The position numbers were made by a program, and so were the translations under genes. 64,000 bases of DNA from Lachnospiraceae bacterium (GTDB taxonomy: Bacteria; Bacillota; Clostridia; Lachnospirales; Lachnospiraceae). The DNA lies in assembly GCA_015057635.1 (NCBI GenBank), contig SVEB01000028.1:62001-126000 (forward strand). Reading direction: 5' to 3'. How positions within the stretch are numbered: the stretch's first letter is position 1; each line of letters begins with the position of its first letter. The notes below the pieces were generated by a model, which was not told the origin of the DNA, searched no databases, and saw nothing but the letters and a program-made list of their open reading frames with translations. Shown here piece after piece: positions 4,822 to 50,940 of the stretch.

Positions 4822-4899
4822 AGTCGGACTAAGAGAGCGTGAATTCCGGCACATTCAATTTCCCGAATGTGCCGGAATCCACGCTCTCTTAGTCCGACT
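4822..4899. repeat. Long intergenic hairpin, 35-bp arms and 8-nt loop
   Basis: AGTCGGACTAAGAGAGCGTGAATTCCGGCACATTC / GAATGTGCCGGAATCCACGCTCTCTTAGTCCGACT, one non-Watson-Crick position. Confidence 0.95.
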
Positions 4900-9659: not shown

Positions 9660-9885
9660 TTACGCCCCCCAGTAAGGGATGAGAGGGAGGCTGGCGTGAA
9701 GCAGTTCCAAATGTTCAGACGCATGAGCGGACAAAAAGATGACTCCGTCTTTGCCTAGCGGACAGGAAAAACTTCTGTCTGCTATTCAAAGACGGAGTCA
9801 CCTTTTTGTTCGTCATGAGCCGGACATTTCGGAACTGCTTCACACCAGCCTCCCTCCCCGCCCCTCCTGGGGCCCCATTCCGCCT
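9660..9885. repeat. Large palindromic element, copy A
   Basis: GGGAGGCTGGCGTGAAGCAGTTCC-AAATGTTCAGACGCATGAGCGGACAAAAAGATGACTCCGTCTTTG ... CAAAGACGGAGTCACCTTTTTGTTCGTCATGAGCCGGACATTTCGGAACTGCTTCACACCAGCCTCCC; clear arms 9685..9854. Confidence 0.95.
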
Positions 9886-24579: not shown

Positions 24580-26754
24580 TTATTCTTCTTTTATCGTCAT
24601 CATCGACTTTGGCATATTTTTAAAAACAACCGAAGAAAATGGATTGACCTTTAAATACAGCACGCCATTCTCCGTCCATATAATCGTGGCATCCACTCCA
24701 AATCCCTCTTCATTGGTATATGCCATCCTTACAAGCGGCAGATCATCAACCACTCCAATCTGCCATGCCGGGATCTCTACATTCACATCATAAGGATTGT
24801 TATTGATAATAATGATGAACTGATCCTTCTTATCAAACCGGCCATAGCTTACAACACCGTGCATCCCTCCTAAAAACTTAATGGATCCGACGCAAAGTGC
24901 CTCATAAGACTTATGAATGCGGATCATCTCTTTATGAAGTCTTATTAGCTCCTTATCCTCTCTTCCCCATGGATAGCTTCTGCGGTCATCCGGGTCGGTC
25001 CAGCCACATACCCCGGCTTCATCCCCATAATAGATGGTCGGCGCTCCCGGCCAAGTCATCTGCATCACCACAGCCTCCCGCATAATAGCCGGATTGATGT
25101 CATAATTCGCTGCCTCTGCGCCCAATGAAGTCGTTCTTCCTACTTTATGATTTGTCCTCGTCATAAACCGGGAATGGTCATGATTGGATAACTCATTCAT
25201 CGCCACCTGCAACGATAACGTCTGGAACTTTGTCATAAAATGAGCCATCGCTCCAAAGAATGCATCCTGATTGGAGAGCATATCCCCTCTGTAATTGTCA
25301 GAATGCTTCTCCACACCGGTTAAAAACCAGGTGATCGGTTCCATAAATGCATCATAGTTCATAATGGAATCCCATTCATCCCCCTTTAGCCATGGCGACG
25401 GATCTCCATAATGCTCTGCTAAAATCAGGGCATTCGGATTAGCCTTTTTGACCACCTCTCGGAATTTTCTCCAGAACTTATGATTGTAGTTTGCAGAATG
25501 TCCTAAATCTGCGGCAACGTCAAGCCTCCAGCCATCCACATTGTACGGCGGAGACACCCACTTGCGCGCGATATTCATAATATATTCGGTCAGCTTTTCT
25601 GATTCCTCATAATTTAACTTTGGAAGCGTATCATGCCCCCACCATCCATCATATGTCTTATTATAAGGCCATTCTTCCCGATAGAACTTAAAGAAGGAAT
25701 GATACGGGCTGTTCCGGTCTACATATGCTCCCTTTTCATATCCCATCGCATGTTCATAAATTCCCTCACGGTCCAGCCATTTATTAAACGATCCACAGTG
25801 GTTGAATACGCCATCTAAAATAATCTTCATCCCACGCCTGTGAATCTCCTTTACAAGCCTTATAAACAGTTCATTGCTTGCTTTTAAATTCTCCTTATCG
25901 GTAACTCTGCATATATACCGGCTTGCCTCCCGGTTGGTCGTCTGATACGGCTGCAGACATTCCCCGATATCCTTTACAATCATGCCATAATGGGGATCCA
26001 CATAATCATAATCCTGAATATCATATTTATGGTTGGAAGGAGATACGAAAATCGGATTTAAATATAGCACTTCCACGCCCAAATCCTGTAGGTAATCAAG
26101 GCGTTTCATAACCCCTGCCAGATCACCTCCGTAAAACTCTCGAACTCCCATCGCTGCCGGATACTTATACCAGTCTTTCACCCGGACGGTTCCTTCTCCA
26201 ATATAGACATACTCCCGGTCCAAAACATCATTCGAAGCATCCCCGTTGCAGAACCGGTCCACAAAAATCTGATAAAAGATCGCACCTCTGGCCCACTTCG
26301 GAGTATGGAAACCAGGTGTGATCACAAAGTTATATTCACTCCTTAAATACTCCGTCAGCCCAATTCGGTTATAGTAATAATTAGAGCCTGCGCAGGTCAG
26401 TAAAAAATAATATTCGGCCTTTTCTTCCTTCAGGCTGATAATTCCTTCGTAATAATCAAACAGTTCGTCGCTCTCCACGATCTTCGTCGGCTTCGCCACA
26501 TCTCCCTGCATCAGTACGACCTGATCCACATTATCCTTCGCAGTCCGAAGGCGAACCCGCACATCTTCTCCTGCATCTGCTTCGATTGGATCACGGAACA
26601 TACTGGTGCCGTCGCTAAAAACAGCTCCATGATTGAGCTCTTTTTTTACAATGGAACTGGCTTTTATGCCACGCTCCACGGAAGAGAGTGCATTCACGTC
26701 GCCTCTATATTCAAACTGCTTTCTGATATCTCCACAATAATTATTTATCTCCAT
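24580..26754 (-). CDS. Glycoside hydrolase family 13 (neopullulanase / cyclomaltodextrinase-like)
   Basis: 724 aa; IFYQIFVDRFCNGD, GVEVLYLNPIFVSPSNHKYD, GMKIILDGVFNHCG, VDGWRLDVAAD, LILAEHYGD, MNELSNHDHSRF. Confidence 0.93.
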   Translation of the reverse strand: MEINNYCGDIRKQFEYRGDVNALSSVERGIKASSIVKKELNHGAVFSDGTSMFRDPIEADAGEDVRVRLRTAKDNVDQVVLMQGDVAKPTKIVESDELFDYYEGIISLKEEKAEYYFLLTCAGSNYYYNRIGLTEYLRSEYNFVITPGFHTPKWARGAIFYQIFVDRFCNGDASNDVLDREYVYIGEGTVRVKDWYKYPAAMGVREFYGGDLAGVMKRLDYLQDLGVEVLYLNPIFVSPSNHKYDIQDYDYVDPHYGMIVKDIGECLQPYQTTNREASRYICRVTDKENLKASNELFIRLVKEIHRRGMKIILDGVFNHCGSFNKWLDREGIYEHAMGYEKGAYVDRNSPYHSFFKFYREEWPYNKTYDGWWGHDTLPKLNYEESEKLTEYIMNIARKWVSPPYNVDGWRLDVAADLGHSANYNHKFWRKFREVVKKANPNALILAEHYGDPSPWLKGDEWDSIMNYDAFMEPITWFLTGVEKHSDNYRGDMLSNQDAFFGAMAHFMTKFQTLSLQVAMNELSNHDHSRFMTRTNHKVGRTTSLGAEAANYDINPAIMREAVVMQMTWPGAPTIYYGDEAGVCGWTDPDDRRSYPWGREDKELIRLHKEMIRIHKSYEALCVGSIKFLGGMHGVVSYGRFDKKDQFIIIINNNPYDVNVEIPAWQIGVVDDLPLVRMAYTNEEGFGVDATIIWTENGVLYLKVNPFSSVVFKNMPKSMMTIKEE

Positions 26755-26855
26755 ATCGCAGTCGCTCCTAGTAAATTTTTTCCTGCTATTCCATTTTATG
26801 ATGTTTTCCCACCAAATACAATAACAACATGACGCAATATGCTACAGATTCTTTT

Positions 26856-27261
26856 AAAAAATGTGTTTGGTTGGGAGGATCTCGGAGGGAGGTGTGAGGG
26901 GGAGGATGGGGGTGTGAATGCAGGGGTGGTGAGGTGTTGGAGGCGGTGACGGCTGAGAGGCGCGAGTGGGCGGCGGCGGAGCGATATTTTTTCCAAATGT
27001 TCGGACGCATGATGAACAAAAAGCTGGTTCTGTCTTTGCCTATCAGACAGGAAGGCTTTGTCTGCTATTCAAAGACGGAACCAACTTTTTGTTCATCATG
27101 AGCCGGACATTTCGGAAAAATATTGCCCCGCCGCCACCCACTCACACCTCTCAGCCATCACCGCCTCCAACACCTCTCCATCCCTGCATTCACGCCCCCA
27201 TCCTCCCCCTCACACCTCCCTCCGATATCGCGACGCGTTTACAAAACAAACGCATCGTGAT
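26856..27261. repeat. Large palindromic element, copy B (arms about 150 bp)
   Basis: Left arm TTGGGAGGATCTCGGAGGGAGGTGTGAGGGGGAGGATGGGGG... mirrors right arm ...CCCCCATCCTCCCCCTCACACCTCCCTCCGATATCGCG; centre holds the conserved core. Confidence 0.95.
27227..27261. repeat. Terminal small hairpin of copy B
   Basis: ATCGCGACGCGTTT-ACAAAAC-AAACGCATCGTGAT. Confidence 0.9.
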
Positions 27262-27748
27262 AAAACACCAGCATATGATGGATCATTTGGTTTTTTATCG
27301 TTTAATTTTTTAATCATTTAGTCATTTTATATAAAGATTATGAACGGCCTTTATAAAAATATTTGACAGAATCAAAAGATACTCTGATTCAGTGCGTCAA
27401 TCCTCGATAGATCAAGGAATGATTCTTATATTGTTAAGAATCGTTATGAAGTAGCATAGACTAAACTTAAAGTAGATTGTTCGGCCCCCTTAACGCCTGT
27501 CTTTTGTCTTAATTATTTCTTATTACCATACCTCTACCTTTATCCTAAGTTTTCTTTCTTTCCTCCTGCCATATTGTATACAGAAATGATAGAATGCAGA
27601 AATATAAAAATAAACGAATACCTGATCCTAACGTATATCCATATTCTCATATCCGTGTATCCCTTTCATACGTTCATTAACTAATCCCGCCAGCACTTCA
27701 GTGCCTGGTCCATCTGTTCGTCCTTTCGTTTCACCAGGCTAGTGTATC

Positions 27749-27779
27749 CACGATGCGTTTCGTTTAGAAACGCGTCGTG
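27749..27779. repeat. Terminal small hairpin of copy C
   Basis: CACGATGCGTTT-CGTTTAG-AAACGCGTCGTG, matching the end hairpin of copy B. Confidence 0.9.
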
Positions 27780-28177
27780 ATGGCGAAGGGAACCCCATGG
27801 AGGGTGCGCTTTCTTTTGGGGGCGGCGGACGCATGATGGGATGCGTGGGAGAGTGGGGCACAGATGTGGACAAAGCAGGATGTGCGGGAGCAACGGGTAA
27901 TATATTTTCCGGAATGTCCGGCTCATGACGAACAAAAGTGGGAGGTTATCTTTGAATAGCAGACAGCGCCTTCCTGTCTGATAGTCGAAGATAACCTCCC
28001 ATTTTTGTCCGCTCATGCGTCCGAACATTCGGAAAATAGATTGCCCGTCGCTCCCGTGCATCCTGCTTTGTCCACATCTGTGCCCCACTCCTCCACGCAT
28101 CCCATCATGCGCCCGCCGCCCCCAAAAGAAAGCGTACCCTCCATGGGGTTCCCTTCGCCATCCTCCCAACAAACTAC
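27749..28177. repeat. Large palindromic element, copy C, opposite orientation to B (arms about 190 bp)
   Basis: Left arm GGCGAAGGGAACCCCATGGAGGGTGCGCTTTCTTTTGGGGGCGGCGGACGCATGATGGGATGCGTGG... mirrors right arm ...CCACGCATCCCATCATGCGCCCGCCGCCCCCAAAAGAAAGCGTACCCTCCATGGGGTTCCCTTCGCC. Confidence 0.95.
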
Positions 28178-28180
28178 AAA

Positions 28181-28213
28181 AAAAGGACAGCTTAACGGGT
28201 GCTGTCCTTTTTC
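28181..28213. terminator. Bidirectional terminator-like hairpin
   Basis: AAAAAGGACAGCTTAACGGGTGCTGTCCTTTTT. Confidence 0.6.
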
Positions 28214-28452
28214 GGAGAAGGTATTTTTGTTACTTATGGGGTGTAGCAAAAACTATATAATGTATTGGGGTTTACGAGTATTAGTATAGCATTGAAAGCC
28301 GAATAAGTGTGCACAAACATTTAACTAAATTTGCAATATTTTTGTTTGAATTGACAATTAGATAAATCTGTTAATTTAGGCGCACTGGAAAAACATCCAA
28401 AAAACAATTTCCATTGAAAATTTTTTTATATTTTTCCAAATACTGTATAAAC

Positions 28453-30315
28453 CTACACTTCCTCGCTAACGATATTACCCTCGATTTCCGGCTGCTTTGT
28501 TTCGAATAAAGCTTCGAATTCTTCACGGCCGATTCTTTCCTTTTCAATCAGAAGCGCTGCACAGTTATGAAGCACATCGATATGATCCAGTAAAATCTGT
28601 TTTGCTTCCGCATAACAGCCATCGATGATCTTTCTTACCTCTTCATCAATTGTGCTGGCAACTGTCTCACTGTAGCTTCTTGTATGAGCTAGGTCTCTTC
28701 CGATGAATACTTCATCATCGTCATTGTCATAGTTCACCATACCGATGCTTTCAGAGAAACCATATCTTGTCACCATGCTTCTTGCAGTCTTTGTTGCCAC
28801 CTTGATATCCTGGCTTGCGCCGGTTGTAATATCATCAAATATGATTTCCTCTGCAATACGTCCGCCAAGGCTTACGATAATATCCTGATGCATTCTTCCC
28901 TTTGTATTGAACATCTCATCTTTTTCCGGAAGCGGCATGGTATAGCCTGCTGCACCAGATCCGGTTGGGATGATGGATACGGTATAAACCGGTCCTACAT
29001 CCGGAAGCACATGGAATAGAATTGCATGGCCTGCTTCATGATATGCAGTGATTTTCTTTTCTTTTTCTGTAATGACACGGCTCTTCTTCTCTGTTCCGAT
29101 TCCTACCTTAATAAAGGATTTCTTAATATCCTCAAACTTGATGAAGTTACGGTCATCCTTTGCAGCGCTAATTGCTGCTTCATTTAAAAGATTCTCAAGA
29201 TCTGCTCCGGTAAAGCCTGCTGTTGTCTGCGCGATCTGCTTTAAGTCAACATCCTCTGCAAGCGGCTTTCCTTTTGCATGTACCTGTAAGATTTCCTCTC
29301 TTCCCTTTACATCCGGTCTTCCAACCATGACTTTACGGTCAAAACGGCCTGCACGAAGGATAGCAGGATCTAAGATATCCACACGGTTTGTGGCCGCCAT
29401 TACGATAATTCCTTCGTTCACGCCAAATCCATCCATCTCTACTAACAGCTGGTTTAACGTCTGCTCTCTTTCATCGTGGCCGCCGCCCATGCCGGTACCT
29501 CTTCGTCTTGCAACGGCATCGATTTCATCAATAAAGATGATACATGGGGAATTCTTCTTTGCTTCCGCAAATAAGTCACGCACACGAGATGCGCCGACAC
29601 CAACGAACATTTCCACGAAATCCGAACCCGAAATGGAGAAGAACGGAACGCCTGCTTCTCCGGCAACTGCTTTCGCAAGCAGTGTCTTACCGGTTCCAGG
29701 AGGTCCTTCCAATAAAACACCTTTCGGAATTCTTGCACCTACCTGAATATATTTCTTTGGATTCTTTAAGAAATCTACGATTTCTCTTAATTCTTCCTTT
29801 TCTTCCTGAAGGCCTGCCACATTCTTAAATGTAGTGTTCTTGCCTTCATCGGTCGTCATCTTAGCCCGGCTCTTGCCAAAGTTCATCACTTTGGAATTTC
29901 CACCGCCGCCGGCACCCATCTGACTGGTTAAGAATGAAAACATCAGGATAATGACTACGAAGCCTAACAGATATGGAAGCACGCTTGTTAAAAACCAGCT
30001 TGGCTTCTGCACATCATTCATAAGAGCAGTAACGCCATGTTCCTCTGCATCCTGTCTTGCTTCCTTCGTATCTGCCACGTATACGCTGTAACTCTTTCCG
30101 TCTTCCGTGGTAACCCGTATCTCGCCGGTCGGTGCCTCTTCATTCTGATAGATATCGACTACTTTAACTGTTCCACTTTCCAGACTGCGTATATAGTCAG
30201 CATAACTGTAATTTTGGGAGCTTCCGCTTCCCATTCCCTCTGACAAATAAACTGCAGCCATAATGATTAGCAGGATAATGACATAAAAGCCATATCCCCT
30301 CATTGACTTTTTCAA
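28453..30315 (-). CDS. ftsH: ATP-dependent zinc metalloprotease FtsH
   Basis: 620 aa; [67 protein letters not shown] zinc motif. Confidence 0.98.
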
Positions 30316-37629: not shown

Positions 37630-37706
37630 CCCCTATAATATAGAAGAAAGAGCATCCATCTCCTTTTTTTCAGGAAATGAATGCTCTTTCTTCTATATTA
37701 TAGGGG
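37630..37706. repeat. Long hairpin (35-bp arms, 7-nt loop) overlapping the patatin gene stop codon
   Basis: Minus strand: CCCCTATAATATAGAAGAAAGAGCATTCATTTCCT-GAAAAAA-AGGAGATGGATGCTCTTTCTTCTATATTATAGGGG; outer 20 bp perfect, two G-T positions. Confidence 0.95.
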
Positions 37707-40913: not shown

Positions 40914-41459
40914 TTAGTTTTCCATCTGACGGCCAAGGAATGCCGCAGCTGTTGCCGCAAGCTTCACTTCCACGTCACCAAGCTTATTCTTTGCATCCTT
41001 AGTTAAGATCATAACCGCACCGATGGCATCTCCTTCGCTGATAATAGGAGAGATTACTTCATATGCGATATCGTCATCATCATTTGCAATACGTACAAAA
41101 CCTCTTTCCTCTTTTCCTGCTGTGATGCTTTCACGGTCGTTGATTAAGATTTCTAAGTCCTTGCTGATGGATCTTCCCATCCATTCCTTCTTGCCAGAAC
41201 CTGCAACCGCTACAAACTGATCTTTATCCGCAACGATCACGATATGACCTGTTGTCTGTGCAATTGCTTCTGCATACTGTTTTGCAAACTGACCTAACTC
41301 ACCGATTGGGGAATACTTCTTTAAGATGATTTCTCCTTCACGGTCAGTGAAAATTTCTAATGGATCCCCTTCACGAATTCGTAATGTCCTTCTAATTTCC
41401 TTTGGGATAACAACTCTGCCCAAGTCATCGATTCTTCGTACAATTCCTGTTGCTCTCAT
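40914..41459 (-). CDS. spoVT: SpoVT-like AbrB-family regulator, copy 1
   Basis: 181 aa; MRATGIVRRIDDLGRVVIPKEIRRTLRIREGDPLEIFTDREGEIILKKYSPIGEL. Confidence 0.95.
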   Translation of the reverse strand: MRATGIVRRIDDLGRVVIPKEIRRTLRIREGDPLEIFTDREGEIILKKYSPIGELGQFAKQYAEAIAQTTGHIVIVADKDQFVAVAGSGKKEWMGRSISKDLEILINDRESITAGKEERGFVRIANDDDDIAYEVISPIISEGDAIGAVMILTKDAKNKLGDVEVKLAATAAAFLGRQMEN

Positions 41460-41917: not shown

Positions 41918-42463
41918 TTAATTTTCCATCTGACGTCCTAAAAATGCGGCTGCTGTTGCGGCAAGCTTGATTTCTGCATCGCCTAACTTTAACTTTGCAT
42001 CCTTTGTCAGAATCATAACTGCTCCAATCGCATCTCCCTCGCTAATAATCGGAGCAATTACTTCATATACAATATCTTCATCATCGCTTGTGATTCGAAC
42101 AAATCCTTTATCCTCTCTTCCAACAGCGATACTTTCACGATCATTGATTAATGTCTCTAAGTCCTTGCTAATTGGTTTTGTCACCCAGTCCTTCTTAGCA
42201 GTACCTGCAACAGCTACGAACTGATCTTTATCGGTAATCACAACAATATGTCCGGTTGTCTGTCCAATTGAATCAGCATACTGCTTCGCGAACTGGCCTA
42301 ACTCGCCAATTGGTGAATATTTCTTTAAAATAATTTCACCTTCACGATCAGTGAATATCTCCAAAGGATCTCCTTCACGGATTCGCAGTGTCCTTCTGAT
42401 TTCTTTCGGAATAACTACTCTACCCAAATCATCTATCCGTCGTACGATTCCTGTCGCTTTCAT
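41918..42463 (-). CDS. SpoVT-like AbrB-family regulator, copy 2
   Basis: 181 aa; near-identical to 40914..41459. Confidence 0.93.
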   Translation of the reverse strand: MKATGIVRRIDDLGRVVIPKEIRRTLRIREGDPLEIFTDREGEIILKKYSPIGELGQFAKQYADSIGQTTGHIVVITDKDQFVAVAGTAKKDWVTKPISKDLETLINDRESIAVGREDKGFVRITSDDEDIVYEVIAPIISEGDAIGAVMILTKDAKLKLGDAEIKLAATAAAFLGRQMEN

Positions 42464-50778: not shown

Positions 50779-50940
50779 GGATGGCGCGCTATCTTTTTTG
50801 AATGTTCAGACGCATGAGCGAATAAAAAGACGCCCGGTTCTTTTCCTGGCAGACAGCAAATTCATCTGTCTGCCAGGAAAAGAGCCGGGCGTTTTTTTGT
50901 TCGTCATAAGCCGAATATTCAAAAAAATAGTGCGCCATCC
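50779..50940. repeat. Large palindromic element, copy D
   Basis: GGATGGCGCGCTATCTTTTTTGAATGTTCAGACGCATGAGCGAATAAAAAGACGCCCGGTTCTTTTCCTGGCAGACAG ... CTGTCTGCCAGGAAAAGAGCCGGGCGTTTTTTTGTTCGTCATAAGCCGAATATTCAAAAAAATAGTGCGCCATCC. Confidence 0.95.

Follow-up and report, generated by a model that had tools for sequence, protein, structure and literature searches.

Element C, a long palindrome lying behind ftsH in the 64,000-nucleotide stretch of Lachnospiraceae DNA analysed here (the window), belongs to a lineage-specific, high-copy repeat family found in two closely related gut bacteria. The reading that we favour, with somewhat more confidence than doubt, is that members of this family are gene-end hairpins, in which a bidirectional terminator core sits within a larger palindrome, the arms of which are held complementary by template switching together with selection.

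Element C and its relatives in the window

The inverted repeat at C is real, as the sequence-only reading had proposed: its ungapped arms (27779-27928 and 28013-28162) are 89% complementary, and the minus-strand RNA of 27740-28215 is predicted to fold into a single unbroken hairpin of -372.6 kcal/mol, compared with -158.5 +/- 6.7 kcal/mol for 100 shuffled sequences (z = -32). The features of this region and the other copies in the window are as follows.

27780..28161, minus strand: whole hairpin of element C, core plus private arms (arm alignment, RNA fold)
27902..28040, minus strand: conserved core of C (covariance model R1, 146 bits)
28041..28162, minus strand: private left arm of C, 122 bp
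28003..28028, minus strand: left collar of C, ATGTTCGGACGCATGAGCGGAC, and A tract AAAA (sequence)
27938..28002, minus strand: inner hairpin of C, a variable GC-rich stem with the conserved apex ATCAGACAGG..CTGTCTG
27914..27937, minus strand: T tract TTTTG and right collar of C, TTCGTCATGAGCCGGACAT
27779..27901, minus strand: private right arm of C, 123 bp
27749..27779, minus strand: small 3' hairpin of C, ACGACGCGTTTC..GAAACGCATCGT, 'M' subtype
28178..28213, minus strand: terminator-like hairpin and T tract (GGACAGC..GCTGTCC TTTTTTT), between ftsH and C (sequence, fold)
28453..30315, minus strand: ftsH, co-directional, on the left-arm side of C
9667..9872, plus strand: element A
26878..27229, plus strand: element B, M subtype
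27229..27262, plus strand: small 3' hairpin of element B
50779..50940, plus strand: element D, located 42 bp past the stop codon of a gene of the sulfatase family

The centre of C aligns with copies A (9699-9839) and B (26985-27122), the three forming one family as had been anticipated, and also with D (50790-50930), a fourth member in the window that had gone unlisted. A 441-base query spanning element C matched elsewhere in the genome through its core only, and the outer arms of C are therefore private to it. The description of these arms as a third, unrelated sequence thus holds, although such privacy is the rule across the family rather than a peculiarity of C, and the arm length first given, about 190 bp, fits half of the whole hairpin but not the private arm, which is only about 122 bp long, the remainder being shared core. 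Similarly, the extent of 27749-28177 first assigned to the palindrome takes in the hairpin but also, at 27749-27779, a small hairpin that is separate from it.

Element A has a counterpart in the congener (L161:17191-17327) that lies on the opposite strand although its flank is syntenic, owing either to an inversion inside the palindrome or to an independent insertion; no counterpart of element B was found at the corresponding site of that genome. The apex of element D is perfectly paired. Two more long hairpins with 35-bp arms and without the core motif occur in the window (4822-4899 and 37630-37706), as does a 300-nt direct repeat (78%) at 40914-41213 and 41918-42217, within two adjacent 181-aa ORFs. 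At gathering score, Rfam identified only tRNAs in the window, and its best weak matches to the element itself were microRNA hairpins far below the cut-off.

A conserved centre and locus-private arms

In gene orientation, the members of the family share one order of parts: a private outer arm, the collar ATGTTCGGACGCATGAGCGGAC, AAAA, a variable inner stem, the apex, the returning stem, TTTTG, the collar TTCGTCATGAGCCGGACAT and the returning arm. The apex consists of TCTTYGAC TATCAGACAGG, a loop and CTGTCTG CTATTCAAAGA, and the collar contains an internal loop and a bulged G. Of 139 copies, 115 have inner stems of 11 or 12 bp on each side, and the stem sequences are different in 138. Outer arms are private to each locus and usually continue 30-45 bp past the core, C (122 bp) and B being long-arm outliers within a minority; the core measures 139 nt, a typical element about 210 bp and C 382 bp. 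In about a quarter of the copies (46/163, a count obtained with a loose pattern and including at least one doubtful case) a small hairpin stands right behind the right arm, defining the M subtype, and in 17/163, the P subtype, AGACGGAC precedes the left arm. Short end motifs are common only to these two subtypes, the outer arms otherwise varying by locus. In the covariance model, which was built from 33 cores and comprises 57 pairs, double compensatory changes are seen in 31 of the 57. Two collapsed copies (L114:9436 and L087:5205) have their collar halves close together and the inner hairpin missing.

Distribution of the family

The covariance model returned at least 149 matches, at about 147 or more distinct places, in this 4.23-Mb assembly, and about 97 distinct places in a same-genus genome of 2.8 Mb once strand duplicates had been merged and the weakest matches excluded. 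No copies were found with the model in three other congeners, one of which, over 400 kb, yielded 0 strong long hairpins versus 71 and was also devoid of the apex motif. A covariance search of 250 genomes of the family and 391 of the class matched this genome alone, the element-bearing congener not being among the draws; an exact 24-mer motif scan of genome contigs matched one MAG, which was that congener (CALZIE01 Lachnospiraceae MAG). Blastn against other relatives revealed no copies and phage and plasmid collections no match, while among viral contigs there was no 22-mer match and the eight 16-mer matches were not elements. No description of this repeat family was found in the literature searched.

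Many contigs of the congener (G001) start or stop inside or beside an element. This frequent coincidence is what an assembly artefact, the objection raised in the sequence-only reading, might be built on, but we attach a practically negligible probability to it: the arms are imperfect (89% in C) and vary from copy to copy across more than 160 places in two assemblies made separately, and the congener ortholog of C has different arms that are equally complementary. Because contigs break at elements, the repeats probably disrupt short-read assembly, and the copy numbers are to be taken as lower limits. One contig of the congener (G001:C261) carries a cluster of several tyrosine-recombinase matches.

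Placement behind genes and the terminator reading

Calls from a simple ORF caller place a co-directional gene on the left-arm side of 128 of the 151 copies, its stop codon at a median distance of 18-20 bp. Copies lie between convergent genes in 72 of 151 cases; among neighbouring gene pairs separated by more than 100 bp, the figure is 89 of 357. A Pfam scan of twenty neighbouring genes identified many as housekeeping genes (RecA, enolase, LepA, MutY-like, FtsH, cyclophilin), and antisense promoters facing the element were not enriched. A short motif (~GTGCCTCACTAG) is repeated shortly 3' of stop codons at L102, L119, L123 and L146, with or without an element.

The heart of the element would be the inner stem, GC-rich and 11-12 bp long, on its conserved apex (ATCAGACAGG..CTGTCTG), with AAAA before it and TTTTG after it, such that RNA polymerase would encounter a stem and a U tract whichever way it travelled. 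Around this putative terminator core would come the conserved collar, presumed to bind something, and then the locus-specific outer arms. Judged from its sequence, this core would terminate transcription in the cell. The elements have the form of intrinsic terminators, in that a GC-rich stem followed by a T-rich tract is present on both strands and behind coding regions: the stem next to the T tract is about 61% GC, and the 8 nt past the inner stem include at least 5 T in 85% of the 153 copies (83% in the opposite direction), values that are partly circular as the measurement was anchored on a motif. In C, the inner hairpin (27938..28002) is a predicted bidirectional terminator stem of -36 kcal/mol. 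Eroded copies without collar or arms retain the inner hairpin and T tract (L170:1022, L232:8808, L235:12382, L103:6658, L115:6692). A terminator-like hairpin stands between the stop codon and the element in 1% of element-bearing genes and within 120 nt past the element in 22%; among genes without an element 40% have one (Fisher p = 0.003). The gene at L109:1501 has an element where, by eye, its congener counterpart (L160) has an ordinary terminator-like hairpin.

Other observations count against termination. The T tract is not only short but also pairs in part with the A tract, and copy L105:7559, like C, comes after an ordinary terminator-like hairpin. The hairpin that precedes C (28178..28213) was missed by a simple terminator scan and identified from sequence and fold; with a separate terminator-like hairpin coming first, ftsH may have no need of C as a stop. 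The terminator scan of 26750-28460 returned 0 sites (1.9 expected by chance), and it calls no site at the elements owing to the length of their inner stem and the interruptions in it. Nor does termination account for the outer arms.

Evolution of the stems

Twelve orthologous element pairs were recognised between the two species by their flanking genes, and further shared sites, C and A included, appear in alignments. In pairs with inner stems of equal length, double Watson-Crick changes outnumber single ones (21 versus 6). The conserved blocks of orthologs are 88% identical, versus 81% for random cross-species pairs (p = 0.013), and the coding flanks of orthologous copies are 85% identical. 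No right-hand flank of at least 150 bp could be aligned within 250 bp of an element, and for this reason we make no claim that the stems evolve faster than neutral sequence. At L098 and L087:3355 the congener carries a small hairpin or a collapsed remnant instead. Loss of SbcCD was considered as a reason for the survival of the palindromes and rejected, SbcD having been found in all five genomes.

Among 130 copies, the conserved apex has two or three mismatches in 107, none in 17 and one in 5, with correction in either direction. Template switching predicts missing intermediates and bidirectional correction (PMC8794818), and the small number of one-mismatch apices is what it predicts; descent from a few corrected ancestors is another possible cause of their scarcity. 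According to the scenario that we favour, the elements would have reached the 3' ends of genes no later than about the time at which the two congeners diverged, often occupying the position of the terminator, and their stems would since have been rewritten while staying complementary, through template switching, by which one arm is copied from the other, and through selection for stem length and core. Template switching would thus be the molecular cause of the kept arm pairing.

Mutation alone, in the form of template switching within existing hairpins, could in principle sustain such palindromes with no function at all. The wholesale correction of the apex in both directions is in keeping with this, as are the private arms, the left of which has a purine fraction like that of the local strand and the right its complement. 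Pure correction would, however, wipe out the collar loop, the bulge and the mismatches, two or three of which are kept in most apices, and it does not account for the inner stem length of 11 or 12 bp in 115/139 copies nor for orthologous cores that are 88% alike next to right-hand flanks of which no stretch of 150 bp or more aligned within 250 bp. We therefore consider a purely mutational origin improbable.

Strand asymmetry of mismatches

Read on the gene strand, arm mismatches are A.C in 332 cases versus G.U in 172 (99 copies versus 31). The A.C excess is present in every gene context, is strongest in the M subtype (77 versus 12) and extends to the inner stems (58 versus 34); several counting schemes all gave more A.C than G.U in stems, and none of the explanations tried fits. 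In the core the picture is reversed, since there it is the gene strand that carries G.U pairs, and the element as a whole also folds slightly better on this strand, whereas the outer arms fold better on the antisense strand (p = 3e-8). The A.C excess speaks for the antisense strand as the one that folds, either as RNA or as single-stranded DNA. Selection acting at the RNA level on the gene strand would be expected to give the opposite excess, and this counts against the terminator reading.

The same excess weighs on the proposal that the elements are stabilisers of mRNA 3'-UTRs or double-stranded RNA substrates of RNase III, for A.C mismatches in the arms of the sense strand are unexpected under selection for an RNA duplex. 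The short distance to stop codons and the extreme predicted stability are suggestive of such a role, but the full duplex would go untranscribed if the inner hairpin terminates, and we hold it to be decidedly improbable. For the same reason the hairpin transcript of about 400 nt envisaged for C stands in part: a full-length RNA would fold in this way (about 380-400 nt), yet it may rarely be made, as the conserved inner hairpin followed by TTTTG resembles an intrinsic terminator.

More in line with the asymmetry would be non-autonomous mobile DNA whose hairpin is recognised by an enzyme as single-stranded DNA of the antisense strand, the placement behind genes then reflecting insertion preference and counter-selection with no terminator role. 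On that strand the more frequent class of arm mismatch above is G.U, regardless of gene direction, and the outer arms fold better; the high copy number, the restriction to one lineage and the element-free sites in the congener point the same way. On the other hand, the ends are unconserved, and hence no transposase end is visible; IS200-like transposases do not track the family, there being two here, none in the element-bearing congener and 13 in an element-free one; reverse transcriptase was detected in neither element-bearing genome and no integron integrase (IntI) scored over the cut-off; and the shared copies with conserved cores look constrained. A mobile origin of this kind is thus, in our estimation, rather unlikely. 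Integron attC sites are variable folded sites directly behind ORFs that are recognised on one strand, and the elements resemble them in being variable, folded and placed behind ORFs; attC was rejected on the grounds that the neighbours are housekeeping genes rather than cassettes and that no integrase passed the cut-off.

Relation to known repeats and significance

In their many dispersed palindromes behind genes, the elements are reminiscent of REPs, BIMEs and REPINs, and their placement is similar: REPs often lie less than 20 bp from the 3' end of an ORF, mostly between convergent or co-directional genes (PMC3733652). REPs are, however, 20-40 bp long and mostly tagged at one end, whereas members of the present family reach 200-400 bp and have a conserved centre and private ends. 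Of the REP foot tags GTAG and CGTC, GTAG is absent among enriched flank 8-mers, and CGTC occurs, on the other strand, within the AGACGGAC of the 17/163 copies of the P subtype. Whereas a RAYT transposase has been proposed for one REP super-family, no transposase tracks the elements here. Relative to MITEs and REPINs the architecture is reversed, the centre being conserved and the ends private, and the conserved terminal inverted repeats by which MITEs are defined were not found.

The nearest functional parallel is offered by the DUS/USS of Neisseria and Pasteurellaceae, inverted pairs of which form terminators and are enriched between convergent genes (PMC1852404). An uptake-sequence function was rejected, as the collar motif is essentially confined to elements and collapsed elements and does not occur as genome-wide singletons. 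Stems with multi-base compensatory changes liken the family to template-switch hairpins (PMC8794818), and the concerted evolution of its arms to the coding palindromes of nematomorphs (PMC6649704); unlike either system, it consists of dispersed bacterial copies that keep a fixed inner core while their arms are private to each locus.

Interspersed bacterial repeats are usually conserved at their ends, and this family combines a conserved centre with private complementary arms. With it, a single genome offers well over 100 parallel cases for testing whether long stems keep their pairing by template switching or by selection. We tentatively entertain the possibility of a self-spreading terminator, a repeat that brings its own bidirectional stop, replaces native terminators at well over 100 genes of one lineage and, wherever it settles, generates new complementary arms through template switching. 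Should the inner hairpin indeed act as a terminator, the family would represent a repeat able to take over gene ends across a lineage.
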